The translations under genes were made by a program, and so were the position numbers. Shown here piece by piece: positions 10,438 through 25,510 of a stretch of DNA of 64,000 bases. Position 1 is the first letter of the stretch; each line of letters begins with the position of its first letter. The DNA lies in the NCBI GenBank assembly GCA_938743325.2, contig OW568876.1, positions 124,001 to 188,000 on the forward strand, written 5' to 3'. This stretch comes from Pycnococcus provasolii. Its lineage: Eukaryota > Chlorophyta > Pseudoscourfieldiophyceae > Pseudoscourfieldiales > Pycnococcaceae. A model generated the notes under the pieces. That model searched no databases. It had not been told where the DNA came from and saw nothing but the letters and a program-made list of their open reading frames with translations.

Positions 10438-10807
10438 GACTAGTTACTGTATTAAAATACTTTATGAGTGAGACAAAGCTCAAAGAGAAGAATGGCAAAT
10501 CCAAACCCCCAATTGATCAATCCAATCCCACCCAAACCCCCAAAATCCAATCCAATCCAACCCCGAACTGCCGATTCTTATTCGGGGTTTCCCATCCTCC
10601 TCCATGTTTTCTTCGAGGTTGTTTGCCGTGTGCATTTCTTTCGTTCCTCTTCATCTTCATCTTCATCTTCATCCGTGGTTCCAAGTGGTTCCTTGGGAAA
10701 ATTGGGAATATTCGGCAACCACTTGAGGCGTGAAGGCGTGAACTGATCAAAAACCACTCTCAGATACCAGAGACTGCCATCAGGAGTACTTAGTAGTATT
10801 TAAGAAC
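10438..10807. other. Divergent spacer upstream of PEX16
   Basis: Spacer of 370 nt between the small membrane-protein gene (-) and PEX16 (+). It contains a CCAATCC-rich direct-repeat stretch at about 10510-10565 and a cttcat trinucleotide-type run near 10645-10670. TTACTGTA lies at about 10443, one of the recurrent spacer motifs. The short ORFs in it are low complexity; I see no gene. Confidence 0.45.
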
Positions 10808-12040
10808 ATGTCCTCCTCAGCATCTTCATCTTCTTCATCATCATCTTCATCTCCTCTGTCATCGTTCTGGTCGTCGTACAAGGCGTTCGTGTTCCAAAAC
10901 CGGGCACTTCTGTCAATGCTAGAATCTACCCTCTCAGCTTCCACGTGGCTCCTCCCTGACAACTCGTCGTCGTCGTCGTCATCCTCGTCATCATCCTCCC
11001 CAGAAATTACAATCGAAGTCGTCTCATGCATCCTCGGACTCATCACCATCTCGCACGACGCCATCGCACAAGTCGAAACCAGAAACCAAGCTGCCGCACT
11101 TCTCGCTGCGGCGGGAGGAACGCCAATACAAGCAAGTGCTGATGACACGACGTCCTCGACAAAAAAAGAAGTGCCCTGGCCGTTCGTCATCGCAGCTGTC
11201 AGACAAGTCGAGTACCTCGTCGAACTCGTCGCTGAACGACAACAAGGAAACGGAAACGGAGACGAGAAACTTTACACCGCCATGACGGGAGTCGAGGCGA
11301 TCAAGGCGGCGGCGAGAATCGCCATGCTCATGCAGGGAAACGCGAGACTGCTTGTCGACGGCGGAGGAGAGCTCAACAGCAAACACGGATGCGCGCCTTT
11401 CAGACGCGACCTCGTGTACGAACGCAGAAGAGGTGCAGCCGCCGTGCACGCCGCGCTGCTTCGCTTTGCAACGCATAAGCAGGCGCCTGCACTACCAGAC
11501 AGCAAGGGGGGCTCTTGCGATGTCGCAAATGCACCCGCTGTGGCTGGAGCACCAGCACCCGCGTCGACCACCGAAACACCGATGCAGCACCGTCCCTTGC
11601 AGCCACCCAAGCCACGCCAAGTCGTGAGAGCTCAGCGACTACACGCAGCTGCGGAACTCGTGTACGTTGTGCGACCCGTCGTCTACGCCGCCCTTCTGCG
11701 CAAGTACGGGCGGCGTGCGTGGACGCCGTGGATCACAAGCCTCGGCCTCGATGCCACGAGCCTTGCTCTCCATCGCGCCGCGGACGCCTCTGCCAGCGAG
11801 ACTGCAACATCCGCCGCCACCCGAAGCACGCAGGAGAAGGAGGAGCTGCTGCGTCGTCGTCGTGCGATTGCATTCTATCTTCTCCGCTCGCCGATCTTCG
11901 ACGCCGTCATCGCAGGACCGCTGGGTCGCTTAAAAAGGGGCACGGAGGCATATGTCCCTCTTGTTGGCGGACTCCTCGCACGCGGCATCGACATTGCCGA
12001 AAACATGCAGCAGTCGTATTATTACGTGAACGGAACGTAA
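10808..12040 (+). CDS. PEX16: Peroxin-16 (PEX16), peroxisomal membrane biogenesis
   Basis: PEX16 is an ER/peroxisome membrane protein that recruits PEX3 and starts peroxisomal membrane assembly. The N-terminal match is FWSSYKAFVFQNRALLSMLESTL then WLLPD, interrupted by long Ser runs. The C-terminal match is strongest: AAELVYVVRPVVYAALLRKYGRRAWTPW followed by KEELLRRRRAIAFYLLRSPIFD, the usual PEX16 signature. The middle (about residues 200-270) is a variable Ala/Pro-rich insert. 410 residues is a little longer than typical (340-370), and the inserts account for this. It converges on the Doa10-like gene with 88 nt between. Confidence 0.92.
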   Translation: MSSSASSSSSSSSSSPLSSFWSSYKAFVFQNRALLSMLESTLSASTWLLPDNSSSSSSSSSSSSPEITIEVVSCILGLITISHDAIAQVETRNQAAALLAAAGGTPIQASADDTTSSTKKEVPWPFVIAAVRQVEYLVELVAERQQGNGNGDEKLYTAMTGVEAIKAAARIAMLMQGNARLLVDGGGELNSKHGCAPFRRDLVYERRRGAAAVHAALLRFATHKQAPALPDSKGGSCDVANAPAVAGAPAPASTTETPMQHRPLQPPKPRQVVRAQRLHAAAELVYVVRPVVYAALLRKYGRRAWTPWITSLGLDATSLALHRAADASASETATSAATRSTQEKEELLRRRRAIAFYLLRSPIFDAVIAGPLGRLKRGTEAYVPLVGGLLARGIDIAENMQQSYYYVNGT

Positions 12041-12128: not shown

Positions 12129-15100
12129 TTACTCGTGGTTGCACAGCTGGCGACCTACCAAATACAGGTCATTGCGAACCGCGGCGTGCACGGTGCGAGC
12201 GCCGGCAGGCACATGCAATGCCAGAAGACAAATCGCGCACAGCCCAGTCACGCCGGCGTGCGAGTATCTCAGCATACCTGCAATCGTCGGGGGTGACAGG
12301 GCGAACGGCGAGAAGAATTCCGGGTACGTGGACGCGAGCTTCGTCGCGGCTGTTCCAGTGAAATGTGCCGAGGCGTACGGAACAGCAAGTGCGGTGGCCA
12401 TCGTCGCGAGAAGTGGCTTCACGATTTCCGTGAAGACCCACCGAGCCTCGAAACGCTCGAGCCCGTTGCGCTCCAAACGCGCAATCTTGCCGCGCCATAC
12501 TGCCGCCCATGCGGGTAGCGGCGACGTGGGCGCCTCGCGAACGTCCGCATCCGCAGCCAGAAAGACTACCGCACGGTGCGCCAGCTTCAGCAGCACCGCG
12601 CCGACAATCCAGTTGTGTTGGTACGTCATGAGCGCAATTTCATCAAGGCGATAGCGAAGTGGCGTCCAGATGGCGAGGTCGAACAGAATGCCAAGCGCGA
12701 GAGGCGCGGCGCCAACGAGAAGGCCCCACACGCAAACGCAGGCCACCGCCGAAGCGGCCCAGTTACCCGTTGACTTCATCAGCTCGCCGATCGTGCGCCC
12801 CTGAACGCGGCTTGCGCAGCGGTTTACAATCCATAGCACAGCCCAGGTGACGTACGCGCCGATTAGGTACGCGTACGCGTCGTGGAGCACGGGCGAGGGG
12901 ATGGCGGCGGTGCCGCCGGACACGGCGGCTGTTGCATTTGCGGCTGCTGCCGCCGCTGCCGAAGACGCCATCGCCGTCGTCTGCGGTGGTGCCATCGGAC
13001 CGAGCACGGAGAGAAGTCTGTGCACATATCGGCCAACTGCAATGGGCACAGACAGCATTGCCGCATAGCTCAGCACTAGTGAAAGCCAGCTGACTGCAAC
13101 GAATGCTAGGATGCGGCTGTTTAGACGTGTTTCGGGGTTCCCCGCAGCCTCACTCGTCTGCGTCGATGATCCCTGTGCATTCGCCACAGCTGATTCGGCG
13201 GAGTTTGTAGGAGGTGGCGGTGGTGAATCCTCCTCATCGACGACAGGATGCGACTCTGGCGAGGCGTCTGCATCACCAGAACCTACCGGGGCAGCAGGTT
13301 GAGTTGCCGGGCCAGCGTCAATGCCGGCATCGGCGGCGTTGCCGTCAGCTGCGACGACGCCACCACCACCACCGCCACCCGCGGCAGCAGCAGCACCAGC
13401 ACCAGCACCAGCACCAGCAGCACCTTCAGGTAATACCGCATCACGCACGCCAAGTGCACGTGTCACAAGTTCTGTCCACCCACGCACCAGCGCCTCAGAC
13501 CATCGTCGCGGCCTCGCGTGCTCGACGGTGAAGGGAAGTAGCACATGGAGAAGCAGAACGTCGAGGCTGAACGGCGCTTTGTGGAAGAGCCAGAAGCTGC
13601 CTGTCAATCGCAGTGGGAATATCCGAAACGTGTCGAAGCCCTTGGCCACGGATAGAGGAATGTAGAGGAAGAGCACCACGAGGTTCGAATAAAGCATGAG
13701 CGTCGCACTGATACGACAGAGGTGAGGTACCAGGCGGCGCTCCTGCCAGCTTCGCCACAGCTGATTCGGCGTGAATCCGGCATCCGCGTGTGCGTCATCG
13801 TCGACATCGGGCGGCGCATCATTGTTATTGTTGTTGTTATTATTGTTGTTGTTGTTGTTGTCAGCCGCGGGTTCCGCTCGAGCGCCTTCACCATTTCGAG
13901 GAGCATTATTTTCGTTATTGTTGAGGGGCATGTCTTCGTCGTCTGGGAGGAAAATCCACTCCCAGTCCTTCTTCACAACACTCTTCACCACGGATGACAG
14001 AAAGCTCAGATGCATGAGAAATGCGACGCCGACAACCCAACGCCACAGGCTGAATGTCAGCAGGCGCGCGGGCACAGAGTAAAGTCTTCGCACGTGGAAG
14101 CGAAGGCGCTTTCCGATTGGCACCCCGAGGATAGACGGACAGCTGCACAGGTCGATCCAAACGCCGAGTAGGCACGGCATGACGTAGAGCTCAAGAGAGA
14201 GAAAGAGTGTCGCCTTGGCAAACTTTCCCACGCGCGTCAGCGCGGCAGCAATCGCTGCATACGCCGCGGCTCCTGCGCCACCTTGCGCGTCTTCTCCACC
14301 GCGCCACGGCGTGAGAAGAAGCGGCAAACTCCACAGACGTGGAATGTGTCCTCGCGCGTCGTCATTGCCATGCTCGCCGTCGCCATCGACATTCTCGCCG
14401 TCAGCCTCCGCTACTGCTTGGTCAGGTTCCCCGCGTCCTGCGGCGCTGGCGACGCGCAGCGTCATCGCGGTCAGATGCGCCGCGAAGATCACCGCCGCGG
14501 CGTATCCAAGCACGATGTACCCAAGCATGAGCGTGGCCCAGTCATTCAGCGGCGGCAGCTGAAGTCGCTGTTCCAGTTCGAGTAGACCAAGCGCAAGCAT
14601 GTGCGCGGTGTCGAGGTCCGTTTCCACGCGATGCCTTTCGCCGCCCACGGGAAAGACAGCCTCCGTGGCCCTGTTCAGCGACGTGAGTCGAACTGGCGCG
14701 GTGTTGGGGATGGAAACTGACAGTGCTGCGAGCGTCGCGTTCGCGGGAACGGGCATCTCATTCGCCGCCGCGAGAAGCGGCGACGTGTACGGGAAGTGCA
14801 TCCACAGTGTCGCAAAGCCGGGCGAAGACGCGCTCGCTTCCATGGAGGTGCCGTGAGCGACGGCGAGGCGGCCAACCGTGAACGGCACAAGGATCAGCAC
14901 GAGCAGGAAGAATGCATTGCTGAGCAGTGCGAGGCCGACATGGCTGGCGAGCGAGTGCCACGTTCCGTTCCATCCGACGAGCACATCGAAGGGAACGTCG
15001 AAGAGCACGCCAACGCCACCAAGTTCGTCGTCTTCGTCGTCTTCGTCGTCAATCTCGCCGTCGTCGTCGTCGTCGTCGTCGTCATTCTCGTCGTCATTCT

Positions 15101-16022
15101 CGCCGTCGTCGTCGTCTTCTGTGTCGGTGCCTTCGTACCCTGGGTTAGGGTTAGGGTTGGGTCTTGGATCGAAGACGAACCCGTCTTCGTCCTGCTGAAG
15201 TTGCTGCTCCTGCTCTTCACCATCTTCTTCATCCGTATTCTCGACGTGCTGCACCTCTTGGCCCATCACCCTTTGCCCCTCGCCATCACCCACCTCGGCG
15301 TCGTTGGCTCCGTCGTTATCGCCCGCGGCACGCCGCCGCCTCCTCCGCCTTCTCCGCGCGCCGTGCGCTCTGTTGCGCGCCCTTGCTGGCGGCGGCCAAG
15401 CGAGCTCCACCGCCTCGCGGACGGATGCCGACGCGACGGCGGCGACGACGAGGATGGCTGATATGAACGAGCCCCAAACGCAGTCGGCGATGGCTGCCGA
15501 AGGCGTCGTGCGGTCCGCAAATGCGCGCATGGCCTCATCGACGCTCCGCGCCATGGATGCGCGCCACATCCAGCACGTCGCGAGCGGCACGACGACGAGC
15601 CACACGCACGCGACGACGAGGAATCGCAGTGTGCGTGTCGCGACGGAAGTGGTTCGCTTGAGGATTCCTCCAAAGAGTTGTCCGGTGGTGAGTTGCGCGG
15701 GTGCGGAGGGTGCGTAGAGTGGTTTGAAGCGAAACGCGCTGTTGCACACCTCGCACCTCGACGTGTTTGTCGTCTGTCCCGCTTTTCTCTTGGAGTCGAT
15801 CCACGACACGAGGCACGCTTCGTGCACGTACCTTATGGAGCCCGTGCACTTGCACGGGTGGAAGAGCGGCCCTTCCGAAGACCGACATATGCGGCACTCA
15901 TATGCCATATGAGGCGCACCAGCCGCAGACGCCACATTACCACTAGAGCCTAGAGCCTCCTCCTGGTGAGCGGAAGCAGACATCCGAACCAAACCGAGGG
16001 GAATGAATGACGACGCACGCAC
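12129..16022 (-). CDS. Doa10/MARCH6-type RING-CH E3 ubiquitin ligase
   Basis: Doa10/MARCH6 (SUD1/CER9 in plants) is the ER-membrane E3 ligase of one branch of ER-associated degradation. The N-terminus carries a RING-CH (C4HC3) finger: CRICRSSEG, CKCTGSIRYVHEAC, then CEVC, at about residues 45-95. Roughly a dozen or more hydrophobic segments follow to residue 1297, as expected for this family. The ATG at 15983 (MSASAHQEE) is an alternative start. Between membrane segments lie very long low-complexity loops: Arg runs, D/E/N tracts (about residues 230-335), an Asn run coded by AAC/AAT repeats near 13820-13860, and Gly/Ala runs. One loop contains an in-frame telomere-like repeat (15142-15161), read as alternating Asn-Pro. 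Family length is 900-1400. Confidence 0.92.
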   Translation of the reverse strand: MRASSFIPLGLVRMSASAHQEEALGSSGNVASAAGAPHMAYECRICRSSEGPLFHPCKCTGSIRYVHEACLVSWIDSKRKAGQTTNTSRCEVCNSAFRFKPLYAPSAPAQLTTGQLFGGILKRTTSVATRTLRFLVVACVWLVVVPLATCWMWRASMARSVDEAMRAFADRTTPSAAIADCVWGSFISAILVVAAVASASVREAVELAWPPPARARNRAHGARRRRRRRRRAAGDNDGANDAEVGDGEGQRVMGQEVQHVENTDEEDGEEQEQQLQQDEDGFVFDPRPNPNPNPGYEGTDTEDDDDGENDDENDDDDDDDDGEIDDEDDEDDELGGVGVLFDVPFDVLVGWNGTWHSLASHVGLALLSNAFFLLVLILVPFTVGRLAVAHGTSMEASASSPGFATLWMHFPYTSPLLAAANEMPVPANATLAALSVSIPNTAPVRLTSLNRATEAVFPVGGERHRVETDLDTAHMLALGLLELEQRLQLPPLNDWATLMLGYIVLGYAAAVIFAAHLTAMTLRVASAAGRGEPDQAVAEADGENVDGDGEHGNDDARGHIPRLWSLPLLLTPWRGGEDAQGGAGAAAYAAIAAALTRVGKFAKATLFLSLELYVMPCLLGVWIDLCSCPSILGVPIGKRLRFHVRRLYSVPARLLTFSLWRWVVGVAFLMHLSFLSSVVKSVVKKDWEWIFLPDDEDMPLNNNENNAPRNGEGARAEPAADNNNNNNNNNNNNNDAPPDVDDDAHADAGFTPNQLWRSWQERRLVPHLCRISATLMLYSNLVVLFLYIPLSVAKGFDTFRIFPLRLTGSFWLFHKAPFSLDVLLLHVLLPFTVEHARPRRWSEALVRGWTELVTRALGVRDAVLPEGAAGAGAGAGAAAAAGGGGGGGVVAADGNAADAGIDAGPATQPAAPVGSGDADASPESHPVVDEEDSPPPPPTNSAESAVANAQGSSTQTSEAAGNPETRLNSRILAFVAVSWLSLVLSYAAMLSVPIAVGRYVHRLLSVLGPMAPPQTTAMASSAAAAAAANATAAVSGGTAAIPSPVLHDAYAYLIGAYVTWAVLWIVNRCASRVQGRTIGELMKSTGNWAASAVACVCVWGLLVGAAPLALGILFDLAIWTPLRYRLDEIALMTYQHNWIVGAVLLKLAHRAVVFLAADADVREAPTSPLPAWAAVWRGKIARLERNGLERFEARWVFTEIVKPLLATMATALAVPYASAHFTGTAATKLASTYPEFFSPFALSPPTIAGMLRYSHAGVTGLCAICLLALHVPAGARTVHAAVRNDLYLVGRQLCNHE
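15142..15161. repeat. Telomere-like repeat inside the coding region of the Doa10-like gene
   Basis: Three GGGTTA-type units lie on the plus strand, in frame within the minus-strand gene, and encode RPNPNPNPG. All other copies in the window are in spacers. Confidence 0.85.
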
Positions 16023-17024
16023 GCGGCAGGAAACAGAGGAAAGGGGAAAAAAGGGAAAAAACGCCTTGACTGCTTGATGTGATGGAGGGATCCTCGGCCT
16101 CTTCCGCCGTTTACGAAATGCTCGAGCTGAGAATTAAGGTTTTCCTCCCTGGGGGGGGGGGGGGGTCCGTCATGGTACGGCTGGTCGTAGCCTGCGTCCC
16201 CTGGGGATCCCGGTCGAGCACTCTCTCGCAACGGGAGGAGGGTGGAAGGTAGGTGAGCAGGACCCGTGGGAACTGACCTTTAGAACACGGGCACGGAACG
16301 GCAGAGGAAGCGTCACGACTCACGTTCGAAGACTTTGCGACGACCCTAACGCGCGCTTCTACATCGGCGTCGCCGGCCGTCCGGACCCGCCGGTTGGCCA
16401 GTGGCCACCAACCACACTTTGCTCGAGTGCTTGCCTGACACAATCGAGAACGAGGAGTCGCCACGAGGACTCGGTGCCGTATCTGCGGAGGCGGGTCGAT
16501 CTGCCAGCATGACATCCGCAGGAGTGACTGCCGATGCCCGCGGTACGACCCGGAGACCGCGGGCATCGATGTGCTGGCGATCCGCTCGGTATTGTCGCCG
16601 AACGCACATTACTTATTCCGGGCACCGGGAGAAAGTGACTGCAAAAGTCACAACAAAAACAACAGTGGCGCGCATGTGTCATCCGGAACATCGGCGTGAA
16701 CATCGCCAAGTTGAGCGCAATGCCGTGCACTACATACAAGGATGATGTGTACGCCGTCTTTGAGGTATCAGCTACGGCGACGTCAGATTCAAACATCCCA
16801 CCAAATATACTTAGGATAGTTGCGCTTTGGTGCTCATGCGAAGCAGGATTAGGCGGGCAATGCGTGCATGGGTCATCGTTGTTACACGCGGTGATGAATC
16901 ATTCTTGTTGATAATGCTGTAATTATTACAGAGGGAAGTAAAACCACAATAGTCCACCATCATCACCAATTCACACAAACAAAAACAATTTTCTCAAATG
17001 GAATCAAACAAATGGAAGCCACTT
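16023..17024. other. Spacer of about 1 kb without a recognised gene
   Basis: It contains a G homopolymer of about 15 at 16148. A moderately GC-rich stretch at about 16290-16700 has ORFs on both strands but none resembling a known protein; it may be a decayed coding remnant. At about 16914 the pair gctgtaattattacag forms a small inverted repeat whose minus-strand copy TGTAA could serve as poly(A) signal for the glycosyltransferase gene that ends at 17025. Confidence 0.4.
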
Positions 17025-18167
17025 TCAATGGCCTGTCTCTATCGACCACTGGTTCTCGACGCGGTCACCAATCTCAGAAGACGGTGCGGTCGATGAAGGC
17101 GTCGACTCCACGGCCGGTGCGCCAACCTTCTGCGCAATTAGCCCGCGGGTTGTCTCTAAGGCCTCGCGAAATCGCTCGTCGCCGTGAAGCTCCAGCAAGA
17201 GATGCTCGAGCTCAAGCTTTTCAGCCTCGAGCGCCGCGCAGCGCCTCTCCAACTTCTTGATGCGATCCTCCTTAACCTTTAGCGTGCTCCGCAACTCCAT
17301 AACCGTGACGTTTGCTGCCAACGCATCGCCGTGCGCCTCAGCCGCGCTCTTCTCGGGAGACGAGCTGCCTGACGCAGCTTCCGCTGCGATAAGGCTGCCC
17401 ATGTCCTCACCCTCGTGCAGCGTGAATGGCTTGTTCAGCATGTACGTGTACGCAGACCCCAAGCTTCTCACCCTCCGCATCGCTGTGTGCACGACACTCG
17501 TAGACGACGGAATCAAAATCGGCAGGCCGTGCATCGCCTTAAGCGCACCGGAAATGGCAAGGTCTTCGAGCTGTGGCACATTCGGAAATCCTCCCGCCTC
17601 TTCATACGCCTCTCGTCGCACGAACAGACACTGGTGTGCATACGTGATGCCCAGCCCCCTCGTTTTTATCCTCGATATGTGGCTGACAACACCTGTTGTC
17701 ACGTCAAGTGCGTCCGTCTCCACATCAGTCCTCGTCGACCAAGACTCCCAGGCGCCCCACTTGTTGTCCTTGAGCGCCTCGTAAACGTGTTGGCCATAGT
17801 TCGCGGGCAGGAGCGTGTCGGCGTCGACGAACATGAGCACGTCCGCCTTTCCGTGGTTGGGGATAGGTTTACCAGTGGCATCCTCGAAGACGCGCTTGGC
17901 TCCCAGCGCGCACTGCGCGCCTCGTCCTCCGGAGCAGTCTTCAACGATGGTTCCGTTGATGTTTTGGTGCAAGCCCGTCGATCTGACCACACTCAGCGTG
18001 CCGTCTTTCGACCCTGCATCGACGACAATTACGGACTGCACATACCCCTTCGCACCCGCGGAGATGGACTTCAGGCACTCGGCGACGTAGAGAGAGTCGT
18101 TGCAAGTCGGGATCACGATGGCTATGCGCATGTTGAATAGCACGAGATCGAGTGATGCGCTGTGCAA
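17025..18167 (-). CDS. Family 2 glycosyltransferase with C-terminal coiled coil
   Basis: The catalytic half (about residues 13-245) is a GT-A fold glycosyltransferase: MRIAIVIPTCND start, VVDAGSKDGT nucleotide-binding region, FVDADT metal motif (113-118), QCLFVRREAYEEAGGFP and QLEDLAISGAL. The layout resembles bacterial TIGR04283-type GT2 proteins. The start may be Met13 (18131). There is no signal peptide or membrane helix, so action in the cytosol or an organelle is likely; donor and acceptor are unknown. After a Ser/Glu linker, residues 280-344 form a charged heptad-like coiled coil ending in ERFREALETTRGLI. This tail is shared with the neighbouring CBM20 protein (see findings). Such a tail is unusual for the family and probably mediates partner binding. 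Confidence 0.85.
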   Translation of the reverse strand: MHSASLDLVLFNMRIAIVIPTCNDSLYVAECLKSISAGAKGYVQSVIVVDAGSKDGTLSVVRSTGLHQNINGTIVEDCSGGRGAQCALGAKRVFEDATGKPIPNHGKADVLMFVDADTLLPANYGQHVYEALKDNKWGAWESWSTRTDVETDALDVTTGVVSHISRIKTRGLGITYAHQCLFVRREAYEEAGGFPNVPQLEDLAISGALKAMHGLPILIPSSTSVVHTAMRRVRSLGSAYTYMLNKPFTLHEGEDMGSLIAAEAASGSSSPEKSAAEAHGDALAANVTVMELRSTLKVKEDRIKKLERRCAALEAEKLELEHLLLELHGDERFREALETTRGLIAQKVGAPAVESTPSSTAPSSEIGDRVENQWSIETGH

Positions 18168-18644
18168 GGCCGGCCGCGCACCCTATCTGAATGTGCTGCA
18201 ATGAGAATGGGACGCATATCTCCTGGAGCGCGAGCGCGTCAGGGGGGGGCAGCTTGTAAGTTTGCGGTTTGCGGTTGCAAGCCTGCAGGTTGGTTGGTTC
18301 GACAGCCATCAATCAAATCATCGTGGGGCCCACGATCCGTACCGGGTACATACAGCTGATCCATACCGGGTACTACAGATGGGTCCTCCATCGAATACCG
18401 TGCGGGTCAGCGGGTACAGTGGGTAGTAAAAAGCTTTTACCAAAGTTTGGTAGAGTAGACCTGGGTTGCAAATCCGCGCCAATTGTTTTAGAAGGAAAAG
18501 TTGCCTGGAAATAAAAGTGACAGCTTTTTTGTTTTCGGTTTTTACACCTTTCTGAAAAAGTTTTCTAAAACTCTTCGGCAAACACAAATTATGGCAACAG
18601 AGCGGTACCCAAGTTCAATGACTCCTACGTAAGCGGTCTGTCGC
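18168..18644. other. Spacer between GT2 and CBM20 genes
   Basis: Both flanking genes are on the minus strand, so this spacer is the GT2 promoter and the CBM20 3' region. Near 18326-18380 a unit of about 17 nt, gatccRtaccgggtac, occurs twice with a looser third copy. No coding sequence is seen. Confidence 0.4.
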
Positions 18645-20210
18645 CTACCTCCTGCTGCCGCTGTCCGTCTCGCTGACCTCCTCCGACTCGCTGACCTTCT
18701 CCGACTCGATCACGTCGCGTGTCGCCTGCAGCGCCTCGCCGACGGATTTCTTGATCACCTTTTTCTCCGTCATAAAGAGGGCGCGTGTCGCTTGCAGCGC
18801 CTCACGGAAGCGTTCAGCACCATCCAACATCTCCATTTCGAGCCCCTCCTTTTCAACCTCCAGCGAGCGAATGTGCTCGCCCGCCTCCTTCATGTGCTTC
18901 TCCTTTAGCATGAGCGTCTCGCGCAGCTCCGCCTCCTTCTCCTCCGCGCGGAGTGCGCGCTGCTCAGCCTGCGTGAGTTTCATCGACAGATCAGAACTCG
19001 TTGTCTCAGCATCCTCGGCACGCTTCAGTGCCGTGCCCGCGAGATCTTCAAGCTCCCTCCTCGCTTCCTCCTTCGCCGCCTCCACACGCTCGATCGCAAG
19101 TTCCTCCGCCTGACGCGCCTGCTCCTTTGCATCCTTTGCAACCTTCTCGGCTTCAGACACGCGCGTTAGAGCAAGCTTGATCTCCTTCTGATTCACCCTG
19201 TTCACGACTTCCTTCTGAGCGAGCTCAGCCTTCAACGATCGGTTCGCGGCAAGCGCATCCTCCACGCTCTTTCGAGCTTTCTGAAGCGTCTCCGCGAGCT
19301 TGGCACCCGTGCTTGAGATGACGCCGGACGACGTGACGAGCTTCGAGCCCGACGCGTCCTCCCATCGATCGATCACCTCGATGCCAACTTCGACATCCTC
19401 TATGTCCACGGTGAGCATGCGATTCGCGCCTTTCTCCCACATTTGGGATGACGGCGTCGCAAGAGCGTACTTGTAGTCGTACACGTGTCCAGCCGGCAGA
19501 GCGACGTATCCCGTCCAGATGTCCCCCGCTCCCCACGCCATTTGCACACCCGCACGGCTGTCCCAGTTACCCAGGCTGCGGTGCTTGCCCAAGACTACGA
19601 GCGTGTCCCCAGGTTTCGCGCAGTACTTCACCTGAAACTTGACGTTGACGGTTGTCGTTGAGGAGGTTGGCGCGTTTGACGTCGTCGTCGTCATTGTTGT
19701 TGTTTGTGTCGTCGTCGCGGGTGTCGGTATGGGTGGCAGTGTGATGTTGGCATCGGCGGCGGGTGTGGCAGCAGTAGTGGCGGAGACTTTCGGGCTGATG
19801 GTTGGCGACGGTGGAGTCCCGAGCGGGCTGCGGAAAGGCTCGGGTGGAGTGGACGTCGTCGGCGGCGGCGGCGGCGTTGGCGGTAACGTGACCTCGGACG
19901 GCTTTGCGTTTCCTCGACCTCCCGCCTTCATAACTTCCTGTGCGCGTCTGCGTGCCGCCTCGAGCACGTTGTTATTCGCGGGAGACGAGTACGATGGTTT
20001 CTGCTGATTTTGCGCGTTGGTTGTCATGGTGGAGGACCGGTTCCCTGTTGGTTCCGTCGCGGTCATGACGACGATATCACCGCGTTGATGACGATATCCT
20101 CGTGCATGCTGATGACGAGCTCGTGAATTCGGCGGCGGCGGCGGCGGTGATGATCGCACACGACGAACTTGTTGAGAAGTACACTGTGCGGACTTCGACG
20201 AGAACATCAT
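18645..20210 (-). CDS. CBM20 starch-binding protein with long coiled coil (SAGA-like layout)
   Basis: The start is placed at the ATG pair 20210/20207; an in-frame reading to 20396 probably runs into a 5'-UTR intron. The N-terminus (MMFSSKSAQCTSQQVRRVRSS) looks like a plastid leader. A Thr/Pro-rich low-complexity region follows, then a carbohydrate-binding module 20: KFQVKYCAKPGDTLVVLG, SLGNWDSRAGVQM, DIWTGYVALP, YDYKYAL (residues about 188-282 from this start). The rest is an extended Ala/Glu/Lys/Arg coiled coil ending in an acidic Ser/Glu tail. A CBM20 followed by a long coiled coil is the plan of the Chlamydomonas pyrenoid proteins SAGA1/SAGA2, though this one is shorter and I see no Rubisco-binding motif. 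It may organise starch granules or the pyrenoid sheath. The terminal module is shared with the adjacent GT2 protein. Confidence 0.85.
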   Translation of the reverse strand: MMFSSKSAQCTSQQVRRVRSSPPPPPPNSRARHQHARGYRHQRGDIVVMTATEPTGNRSSTMTTNAQNQQKPSYSSPANNNVLEAARRRAQEVMKAGGRGNAKPSEVTLPPTPPPPPTTSTPPEPFRSPLGTPPSPTISPKVSATTAATPAADANITLPPIPTPATTTQTTTMTTTTSNAPTSSTTTVNVKFQVKYCAKPGDTLVVLGKHRSLGNWDSRAGVQMAWGAGDIWTGYVALPAGHVYDYKYALATPSSQMWEKGANRMLTVDIEDVEVGIEVIDRWEDASGSKLVTSSGVISSTGAKLAETLQKARKSVEDALAANRSLKAELAQKEVVNRVNQKEIKLALTRVSEAEKVAKDAKEQARQAEELAIERVEAAKEEARRELEDLAGTALKRAEDAETTSSDLSMKLTQAEQRALRAEEKEAELRETLMLKEKHMKEAGEHIRSLEVEKEGLEMEMLDGAERFREALQATRALFMTEKKVIKKSVGEALQATRDVIESEKVSESEEVSETDSGSRR

Positions 20211-23595: not shown

Positions 23596-25323
23596 TTACA
23601 CAACATAACCGTGAAATCGGAAAGGAACGTGCCTGTCAAAGCGTACCTCGCATATTGCGTCCGCACTGACATTCCGAGCGTCCAGTACACGGACCACAAG
23701 TTCGTGTGACGTTGCATCGTATAGAGGGCAAAGCAAGTATCCGTCATCCTCGCGAGATGCACTGCTAGATGCAACAAAGAGCGGCTCGTTTGCGTACTGA
23801 CCGCTCGGAATGGAGTGAACCTCGCTCGTTCCATGTTCGAGGTCCACCTTTTGTATGCGGTCGAAGTACGACGGAGTCGTTGGGCGCTCGCCACCCACTG
23901 GCGCGTCAGAACGACCAACGGCGTACGCGTAGCGTGCCTTTCGCATCGCGTTCGCCGGATTCACAAACGGAAATTCCAGAGCCAGTGCCCCACTCGCCGA
24001 TCCCTCGCAGACGGCACGCCGGCTGACGAACCGAACCGAATCGTTCGCCGCTGACACGTGAAGTTCGTGCTCCCAAAGGTCCGCGTGATGCCCGGGGTCG
24101 AACTCCGCGTCGTACATGTTCGCAAATTGCCGCTCTAGGCCTGGACGATCTGCATCACGCTGCTGAGCGAGCGTGACGCGAAGCGTCACGCCGTCGCCGG
24201 AAGCTGCCGGCTCCTCGAACGCATTCGCGACGTGGTAGAACGAGAATGCGTTGTCGCACACAGCCTCGCCAACCACCTCGAGCGTGTCCCTCTTCAGCAC
24301 GATGGCTTTCGTTCCGAGGCTTGCGTCGTAGCGAAACCTGTGCCCGAGAGGTCCCTCGAAGAGGATGGACGGCAGAAGCTCTGAGAATGCGCACACCCAC
24401 GGCGGTATGAGGATCACGATGTGATTCTCGGTGACGGCAAAGTCGTGCACAAAGACGATGTTCCCGCCGAGGGAAACCGTCGTCTGTGCCGCCACCCTGC
24501 CGTCGGCGCCGACGCGCACGACGTCGAGCGCCGGTGGGCCGACGAGTCGCGCGCCGAAGGTGAAGTACTCACCCGTCTTCGCGTCGTGCTTTCCGTGGGC
24601 CGAAAGGAAGCACCCTGGCTCGAGGCCAGGAGGCACGGCGTCGAGCGCGACGGTTTCTAGCGTCTGCGGGTCCATCTCCGCGGGTAGTCCGCCCTCGCAC
24701 AGAACGAGCAGCTTGCCGTTCAGAACGGTGACCGCGGTGTTCCTCGGGTTGCTTGGCTGGCGCCCGACGTTTCGCAGCCATCCGCCTCCGGCGTCCGTCC
24801 AGAATCCACGTGTGGCCATACCCTTTCCCTCTCCGAGCGCGTTTTGCTCCTGCAGCCGTTCACCGGCGACCATGCGGTGGCTGACGCTCGCGGCGTCTGG
24901 CCCCTCGAATCGCACAGCCATGACGGACCCGTCGCCATCGAACCAGTGTCCGTACCTTTCGTTGCAGTCGGCGCCCTCGAGTCGTATACGCCCAGGTCCC
25001 GCGGCGTAGATGGCACGCCCGATGAGGTCATCCGGTATGGTTCCCTTGATTTGCACGCTTGCGACGTCGTTGAATTCTCCCGCAGGTTCGAGTCCCATTT
25101 TCCAAGGCTGGGAGCGAGCGGCGGCGCGCACGTATTCTGGCGTAACAGGCGAACGCGAAGTGGACGAGGTGGTGGGGGTGGATGTTGACGTGGAAGGAGA
25201 GGATGAGCACGACACGTGAGGACGAGTGCGCTTGCCCTTCTTGCCATGAGGACGGAGAGGCGCCACAGACATTTTTGCTTTGATCGCCGGCGCCATCATC
25301 ATTTTTTCTTTACCGGAAGTCAC
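23596..25323 (-). CDS. Carotenoid cleavage oxygenase (RPE65/CCD family)
   Basis: Non-heme iron oxygenases of this family cut carotenoids or apocarotenoids (or, in some members, stilbenes) at a double bond. The four iron-binding His regions are visible in order: LSAHGKHD (about 241-247), FVHDFAVTENH (His292/293 region), FYHVANAFEE (His364 region) and the C-terminal FRFHGYVV. Other family marks are HWFDGDGSVMAV, GFWTDAGGGW, NTAVTVLNGKLL and YDAEFDPGHHADLWEHEL. At 575 residues it is slightly longer than the minimal family because of a Ser/Thr-rich N-terminus, which may be a plastid leader though it is not typical. The substrate (beta-carotene, xanthophyll or apocarotenal) cannot be read from the sequence. 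Confidence 0.93.
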   Translation of the reverse strand: MTSGKEKMMMAPAIKAKMSVAPLRPHGKKGKRTRPHVSCSSSPSTSTSTPTTSSTSRSPVTPEYVRAAARSQPWKMGLEPAGEFNDVASVQIKGTIPDDLIGRAIYAAGPGRIRLEGADCNERYGHWFDGDGSVMAVRFEGPDAASVSHRMVAGERLQEQNALGEGKGMATRGFWTDAGGGWLRNVGRQPSNPRNTAVTVLNGKLLVLCEGGLPAEMDPQTLETVALDAVPPGLEPGCFLSAHGKHDAKTGEYFTFGARLVGPPALDVVRVGADGRVAAQTTVSLGGNIVFVHDFAVTENHIVILIPPWVCAFSELLPSILFEGPLGHRFRYDASLGTKAIVLKRDTLEVVGEAVCDNAFSFYHVANAFEEPAASGDGVTLRVTLAQQRDADRPGLERQFANMYDAEFDPGHHADLWEHELHVSAANDSVRFVSRRAVCEGSASGALALEFPFVNPANAMRKARYAYAVGRSDAPVGGERPTTPSYFDRIQKVDLEHGTSEVHSIPSGQYANEPLFVASSSASREDDGYLLCPLYDATSHELVVRVLDARNVSADAICEVRFDRHVPFRFHGYVV

Positions 25324-25510
25324 GGGGGGGAATGATGTGGATATGTGGCGCAGATACTTCTCGGAGGGGGGGGAGATTTCTCACCCGTACCACTCTACCC
25401 GTACCCCGGGCCTTTCCGCCGGCAGTTGCCGGGCCCGGGATCCGTCGTAGAAAATGTACGAACTAATGCCAATCCTTGTGTCCCCACTCCCCACTTCTCC
25501 CCTCGAAAAT

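Follow-up and report, generated by a model that had tools for sequence, protein, structure and literature searches.

A Common C-Terminal Tail on Neighboring Glycosyltransferase and Starch-Binding Protein Genes of Pycnococcus provasolii

The tiny marine green alga Pycnococcus provasolii carries, on the minus strand of contig C16, a gene for a protein with a CBM20 starch-binding domain and, directly downstream of it, a gene for a GT2-family glycosyltransferase. Both lie within the 64,000-nucleotide stretch of DNA analyzed here (C16:124001-188000, "the window"), which belongs to an assembly of 32,333,900 bases in 46 contigs that we searched as a whole. A published assembly of strain CCAP190/2 consists of 44 chromosomes plus the mitochondrial and plastid genomes and amounts to 32.2 Mb (PMC11130579, available excerpt). 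A first-pass annotation of the window had proposed that the two genes adjoin on one strand and that their products, which have unrelated heads, end in homologous tails. Both frames are indeed open on the minus strand, where the GT2 gene (18131-17025) lies downstream of the CBM20 gene (20210-18645). Residues of the GT2 protein are counted from the ATG at 18131; the earlier numbering runs from the stop-to-stop frame and is converted by subtracting 17.

The Shared Tail and Its Anatomy

Both heads are recognized by Pfam above the gathering threshold of 23.3 bits: the glycosyltransferase by Glycos_transf_2 (42.2 bits, E 1.1e-10) and the starch-binding protein by CBM_20 (59.1 bits, E 3.9e-16). A local alignment of the two C-termini pairs 60 residues, 29 of which are identical, with one 2-residue gap. 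Over the shorter span from LR.TL to TR.L, where 25 of 51 identities had been counted by eye, a recount gives 25 in 50 aligned pairs. A two-sequence blastp comparison with composition adjustment assigns the tail pair an E-value of 2e-9. Its Smith-Waterman score of 107 was not reached in any of 4 x 5000 shuffles (0/20,000), with a fitted p between 4e-7 and 3e-6. The highest scores are 77 and 71 when the residues of one tail or the other are shuffled freely, and 83 and 85 when shuffling is confined to heptad positions.

The background that we scored consisted of open stretches in all six frames, each 80 amino acids or longer, from the window and from loci of the same genome. Among the 1449 stretches without the tail motif, many from loci that had come from searches using these very proteins, the top scores are 67 for the GT2 tail and 51 for the CBM20 tail, compared with 107 for the tail pair; three rows (81, 76, and 58) were excluded because they represent the GT2 tail itself, truncated at the end. 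The score of 67 belongs to a stretch on C31 (L003) with an E-value of 0.46 in the genome search. A further set of 28 helix-rich 60-mers scores at most 44 and 48 against the two tails. Judged by these comparisons, two unrelated heads carry one module as homologous tails, as the first-pass annotation had suggested. Their likeness exceeds that of unrelated coiled coils after correction for composition, as measured by adjusted blastp, shuffles, and background scan rather than by a profile-profile comparison.

The module consists of a heptad, coiled-coil-like stretch followed by the sequence GxERFREALxxTRxL. The latter is the best conserved part, with 11 of 15 residues identical, compared with 6/10 at the a/d positions and 9/26 at the other heptad positions. 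Since this stretch lies outside the heptads, the likeness of the tails is more than that of generic coiled coils. The heptad register coincides in both tails, and Lys occupies the same two a/d positions; in the GT2 tail, the a/d residues read LLKILCLKLLL and the register has a shuffle p of 0.009. The post-heptad stretch is probably helical, and the tail as a whole is probably helical and would self-associate. The sequence ERFREALxxTRxL is found once in the GT2 protein and twice in the CBM20 protein if a partial repeat is counted. The second EALQATR copy reported earlier for the CBM20 protein is present at 18717-18737, 22 residues on, and both copies are embedded in a 46-nt direct repeat (18697-18742 and 18763-18808, 76%).

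A DALAAN match had also been placed in front of the module in both proteins. Both proteins do contain it. In the CBM20 protein, however, about 100 residues separate it from the module downstream, and it falls within a stretch common to tail-less paralogs (AxNRxLKxEL); it is therefore not collinear with the module. This position led us to reject DALAAN as a part of the tail; the likeness is probably coincidental.

Table 1. Coordinates of the two genes, their domains, and the shared tail (window positions)
Feature	Position	Strand	Basis
Gene for GT2-family glycosyltransferase (368 aa plus stop), ending in the shared tail	17025..18131	-	Open frame; Pfam and TIGR04283 matches
GT2 head, TIGR04283 positions 1-202 of 221, family C-terminus unmatched	17430..18125	-	Profile match, 102 bits; alignments
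Shared tail, GT2 protein (aa 270-331)	17139..17324	-	Local alignment, 29/60 identical
Heptad part of GT2 tail	17187..17297	-	Register shuffle p 0.009
GDERFREALETTRGL, best conserved part of GT2 tail	17139..17183	-	11/15 identical
Spacer of 513 bp, CBM20 stop codon to GT2 ATG	18132..18644		Coordinates
Gene for CBM20 starch-binding protein (521 aa plus stop), C-terminal half charged and helix-like	18645..20210	-	Open frame; Pfam
Transit-peptide-like N-terminus of CBM20 protein, no acidic residue before aa 45	20079..20210	-	Composition; localization inferred
CBM20 domain	19404..19652	-	Pfam
KLxxxLxxARKxVxxAxAxNRxLKxEL, kept in both tail-less CBM20 paralogs	19212..19313	-	Paralog alignment
Shared tail, CBM20 protein (aa 419-478)	18777..18956	-	Local alignment
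Heptad part of CBM20 tail, register as in GT2 tail	18825..18929	-	Register shuffle p 0.049
GAERFREALQATRAL, best conserved part of CBM20 tail	18777..18821	-	Column identity
Second EALQATR copy, CBM20 protein	18717..18737	-	Repeat alignment

Distribution of the Tail and Relatives of the Two Heads

When either tail was used in a single-protein search of the whole assembly, the two window genes came up, followed by noise (E 0.46 and 0.9; E 5); such searches score only the top first-look candidates, and very diverged copies may escape them. The match with E 0.9 is a weak tail-like stretch on C34 with a score of 65 (L004, G000:C34:157600-157752, HGDEGLAEALKVTQAM). Its similarity to the end of the GT2 tail is likely due to chance; it lies in a 571-aa frame and possibly belongs to a tyrosyl-tRNA synthetase. 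At the codon level, the pattern REALxxTR has 24 matches in the genome versus 32 for the reversed control, and the idea of a genome-wide REALxxTR motif family was dropped for this deficit. Only the two window genes have the pattern behind this heptad stretch. One other match, in a 717-aa frame on C1, has charged, helix-like flanks that do not match the tail.

The paralogs examined for both proteins are without the tail. For the GT2 protein these are one on C6, 50% identical across aa 2-235, and one on C34 that is more distant. For the CBM20 protein they are encoded on C42 and C35, and both share with the window protein the transit-like start, the CBM20 domain, and the AxNRxLKxEL stretch; the other CBM20 frames were covered by the whole-genome tail searches. 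The CBM20 domain is expanded in this genome: 27 matches exceed the cut-off, and 12 of these lie on C42 (L006, L008, L017-L022, L026, L027, L034, and L036). Four CBM20 domains are found in one 2498-residue open frame on C42, which adjoins the paralog of the window protein.

Relatives outside this genome were sought in collections of prokaryote, viral, and plasmid DNA. From the best 80 of 121 confirmed bacterial and archaeal GT2 loci, 31 were extended to full frames and 30 aligned (the long frame L068 was left out), and none of the 30 aligned bacterial relatives has the tail. Alignment scans of viral contigs with CBM20, GT2, and tail gave 67, 43, and 190 pattern matches, respectively, none of which was confirmed, and a plasmid tblastn search with the GT2 tail gave no match.

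The GT2 head also matches TIGR04283, a family that NCBI links to arsenosugar biosynthesis, with 102-103 bits (E 1.7e-29). This is below the curated cut-off of 182 bits, which no match in the genome exceeds. Whereas the match of the C34 paralog spans the complete model (1-221) and that of the C6 paralog positions 1-214, the window protein covers 202 of the 221 positions. Of the 44 residues on which 85% or more of the 30 bacterial relatives agree, it has 28, compared with 35 in the C6 and 38 in the C34 paralog. The losses include E12D, H103D, G165A, and D166H, all at positions conserved in at least 29 of the 30 relatives; the C6 paralog retains the conserved residue at each of them. The window GT2 thus resembles the family in its coverage and in retaining D38, the Asp of DxD, ED, and RR, but differs in having the tail for a C-terminus and in the changes of GDQ to AHQ and HAD to DAD. 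Because of the low score and the lost residues, we do not assign it to TIGR04283. Since four family-conserved residues are changed, the head is probably neofunctionalized: it probably acts on a substrate other than the one used by the bacterial family, or else has reduced activity. The arsenosugar name should not be transferred to this protein; a search of the literature on arsenosugar glycosyltransferases found no mention of TIGR04283.

Elsewhere in the window, the neighborhood includes genes for a MARCHF6-like RING E3 ligase (12132-16133, minus strand), Pex16 (10742-12037, plus strand), and a protein of the RPE65/carotenoid-oxygenase family (23599-25380, minus strand). The minus-strand frame at 21437-21964 matches no Pfam family at E 0.01; it resembles the RNase H part of a retroelement. 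On C31 (133072-142609 and 360395-366434), there are two groups of six matches to light-harvesting proteins, all twelve equal in score and E-value, which suggests that these arrays are very recent or gene-converted; one light-harvesting protein of this genome matches chlorophyll a-b binding proteins in a PDB comparison.

Origin of the Tail and Rival Explanations

To explain one module on two unrelated heads, we favor, as a reasonably probable scenario, an old local tandem duplication that fused the 5′ part of the GT2 gene to a copy of the 3′ end of the upstream CBM20 gene, with the resulting tail driving self-association. The two breakpoints would fall in the 3′ part of the GT2 gene and, within the CBM20 gene, on the 5′ side of the tail. 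The CBM20 gene would stay whole, while the junction would create a chimera of the GT2 5′ part and the CBM20 3′ end, in which the tail replaces the normal C-terminal end of the GT2 fold. Such a single event would account for the adjacency, order, and shared strand of the genes as well as for the missing GT2 family C-terminus. Tandem duplications that ignore gene boundaries can join the 5′ and 3′ ends of two genes, as described for Drosophila (PMC5460883, in the excerpt available). The tail would since have been kept by constraint at the protein level and would most likely drive self-association of each protein by itself. Given their matching core residues and register, the tails could also form mixed GT2/CBM20 oligomers wherever the two proteins co-occur.

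The nucleotide sequences of the tails fit an old event. Of the 29 codon pairs for identical residues, 11 are identical, with 12.1 expected from codon usage. The proportions of synonymous (pS) and nonsynonymous (pN) differences are 0.72 and 0.35, with pS exceeding pN in 1000/1000 bootstrap resamples. Synonymous sites are thus saturated, which implies that the shared origin is old, and the excess of pS over pN points to protein-level constraint, an excess biased by the fact that the region was picked for its protein similarity.

This bias is one of several points that weigh against a duplication chimera. Of the two hallmarks of such a gene, a 3′ module in common with the adjacent upstream gene combined with loss of the own 3′ end is seen here, but a visible duplicated block or an intact downstream parent is not, the nearest intact paralog being located on C6. 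A search for remnants of a duplicated block found none: when the 3′ ends and their flanks are compared as DNA, the best alignment falls within the tails, scoring 29 under strict parameters versus a shuffle maximum of 31, i.e. noise, and 29 versus 16 under looser ones. Likewise, the 891 bp downstream of the GT2 gene (16134-17024) show no similarity to the GT2 or CBM20 gene (scores of 40, 36, and 45 versus shuffle maxima of 52, 51, and 60). Since no such remnant was found, the direction of transfer from CBM20 to GT2 is inferred, not proven, and the tail may have begun on the GT2 protein. The prediction of self-association is also affected. The register of the CBM20 tail (a/d residues LLKMAILKLM) is marginal, with a shuffle p of 0.049, and no single heptad register emerges from the rest of the C-terminal half of that protein (aa about 300-425; p 0.68).

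The uncertain direction leads to a rival explanation, in which the CBM20 gene received a copy of a tail that was born on the GT2 protein or on a third gene, since lost. As the CBM20 paralogs also are without it, the tail may be an add-on in this gene, too, and the divergence is too great for the sequences themselves to give a direction. Upstream-to-downstream copying, however, is one event that accounts for the lost GT2 C-terminus, and the CBM20 protein family already has a helix-like C-terminal stretch; we therefore regard reverse transfer as quite improbable. Still less credible, and in our view extremely improbable, is convergence of unrelated coiled coils that resemble each other by chance owing to similar composition. 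Both tails are rich in Glu, Lys, and Leu, their DNA-level similarity under strict scoring is at noise, and in Pfam the GT2 tail matches a further helical protein, BST2, below threshold (E 0.048). Against this stand the shuffles, heptad-preserving ones included, and the low scores of unrelated frames and helix-rich 60-mers, on which we discarded the explanation. Conservation is highest outside the heptads, PDB-wide searches with the tail gave nothing better than E 0.63 and 0.15, and adjacency of the genes would be a second coincidence.

The shared docking partner or hetero-oligomer suggested by the first-pass annotation concerns the role of the tail: it would assemble GT2 and CBM20 proteins together or on a common partner and thereby bring the glycosyltransferase to starch. 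The identical register and core Lys positions, the strongly conserved non-heptad stretch, the three EALxxTR copies across the two proteins, and the adjacency of the genes are all in line with this idea. We nevertheless consider it unlikely. A duplication accounts for the shared tail without any interaction, and we know of no GT2 protein of the TIGR04283 type that acts on starch, which counts against docking. In addition, the CBM20 protein and its two paralogs are transit-like at the N-terminus, whereas the GT2 protein and its C6 paralog begin at the catalytic fold. All three CBM20 proteins start with a Ser/Arg-rich segment devoid of acidic residues for 44 or more positions; in the window protein, the first 40 residues contain 0 acidic residues, 8 Arg or Lys, and 8 Ser or Thr. 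Plastid transit peptides tend toward such Ser/Arg-rich, acid-free starts. From their N-termini, the two proteins may therefore reside in different compartments, although an upstream transit exon of the GT2 gene is possible. On the side of docking, a CBM20 or CBM48 domain combined with a coiled coil is known or proposed to position factors on starch in BSG1, PTST, and SAGA (PMC6374437, PMC13167743, partial texts).

Comparison with Known Systems

If our preferred scenario of a duplication chimera is correct, the locus is an apparent case of an enzyme that acquired the assembly tail of its genomic neighbor and retained it until synonymous sites were saturated. The closest parallel to the mechanism is provided by the duplication chimeras of Drosophila yakuba, in which the junction likewise joins the 5′ end of one gene to the 3′ end of another (PMC5460883, excerpt). 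Unlike these, the event in P. provasolii is old, and neither a duplicated block nor an intact downstream GT2 parent was found at the locus. The pair also makes a question testable, namely whether a copied oligomerization tail leads to a new complex or merely to a new self-assembling enzyme.

The CBM20 protein may be compared with BSG1 of Chlamydomonas, which has a putative transit peptide, a CBM20 domain, and a coiled coil (PMC6374437, partial text). The window protein likewise has a transit-like N-terminus and one CBM20 domain with a coiled-coil-like stretch behind it, although its heptad register is marginal. In BSG1 the CBM20 domain occupies residues 72-150 of 792, and the part of the text at hand mentions no glycosyltransferase partner. 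A literature search on green-algal fusions of CBM20 and glycosyltransferases brought up no pair like the one reported here, as judged from titles and abstract openings.

SAGA1 and SAGA2 of Chlamydomonas, another pyrenoid-bearing green alga, carry Rubisco-binding motifs and also combine CBM20 with a predicted coiled coil; according to the excerpt available, SAGA proteins occur in Volvocales and not in other algae (PMC13167743). A pyrenoid is readily visible in P. provasolii (PMC5656628, excerpt), and a literature search found no Rubisco linker in Pycnococcus. We also rejected a SAGA-type Rubisco motif as a candidate, since the Chlamydomonas Rubisco-binding pattern has no match in five proteins including both window proteins. 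One could speculate, with very little expectation of being right, that the tail tags proteins for assembly into the starch or pyrenoid apparatus and is specific to the Pycnococcus lineage. Rubisco or a plastid scaffold might then be the common partner to which ERFREALxxTRxL binds, and the duplication would have turned a bacterial-type GT2 protein into an enzyme working on or near the starch sheath. Should the two tails pair, they would represent a route by which algal starch or pyrenoid scaffolds gain enzymes outside the SAGA system of Chlamydomonas.

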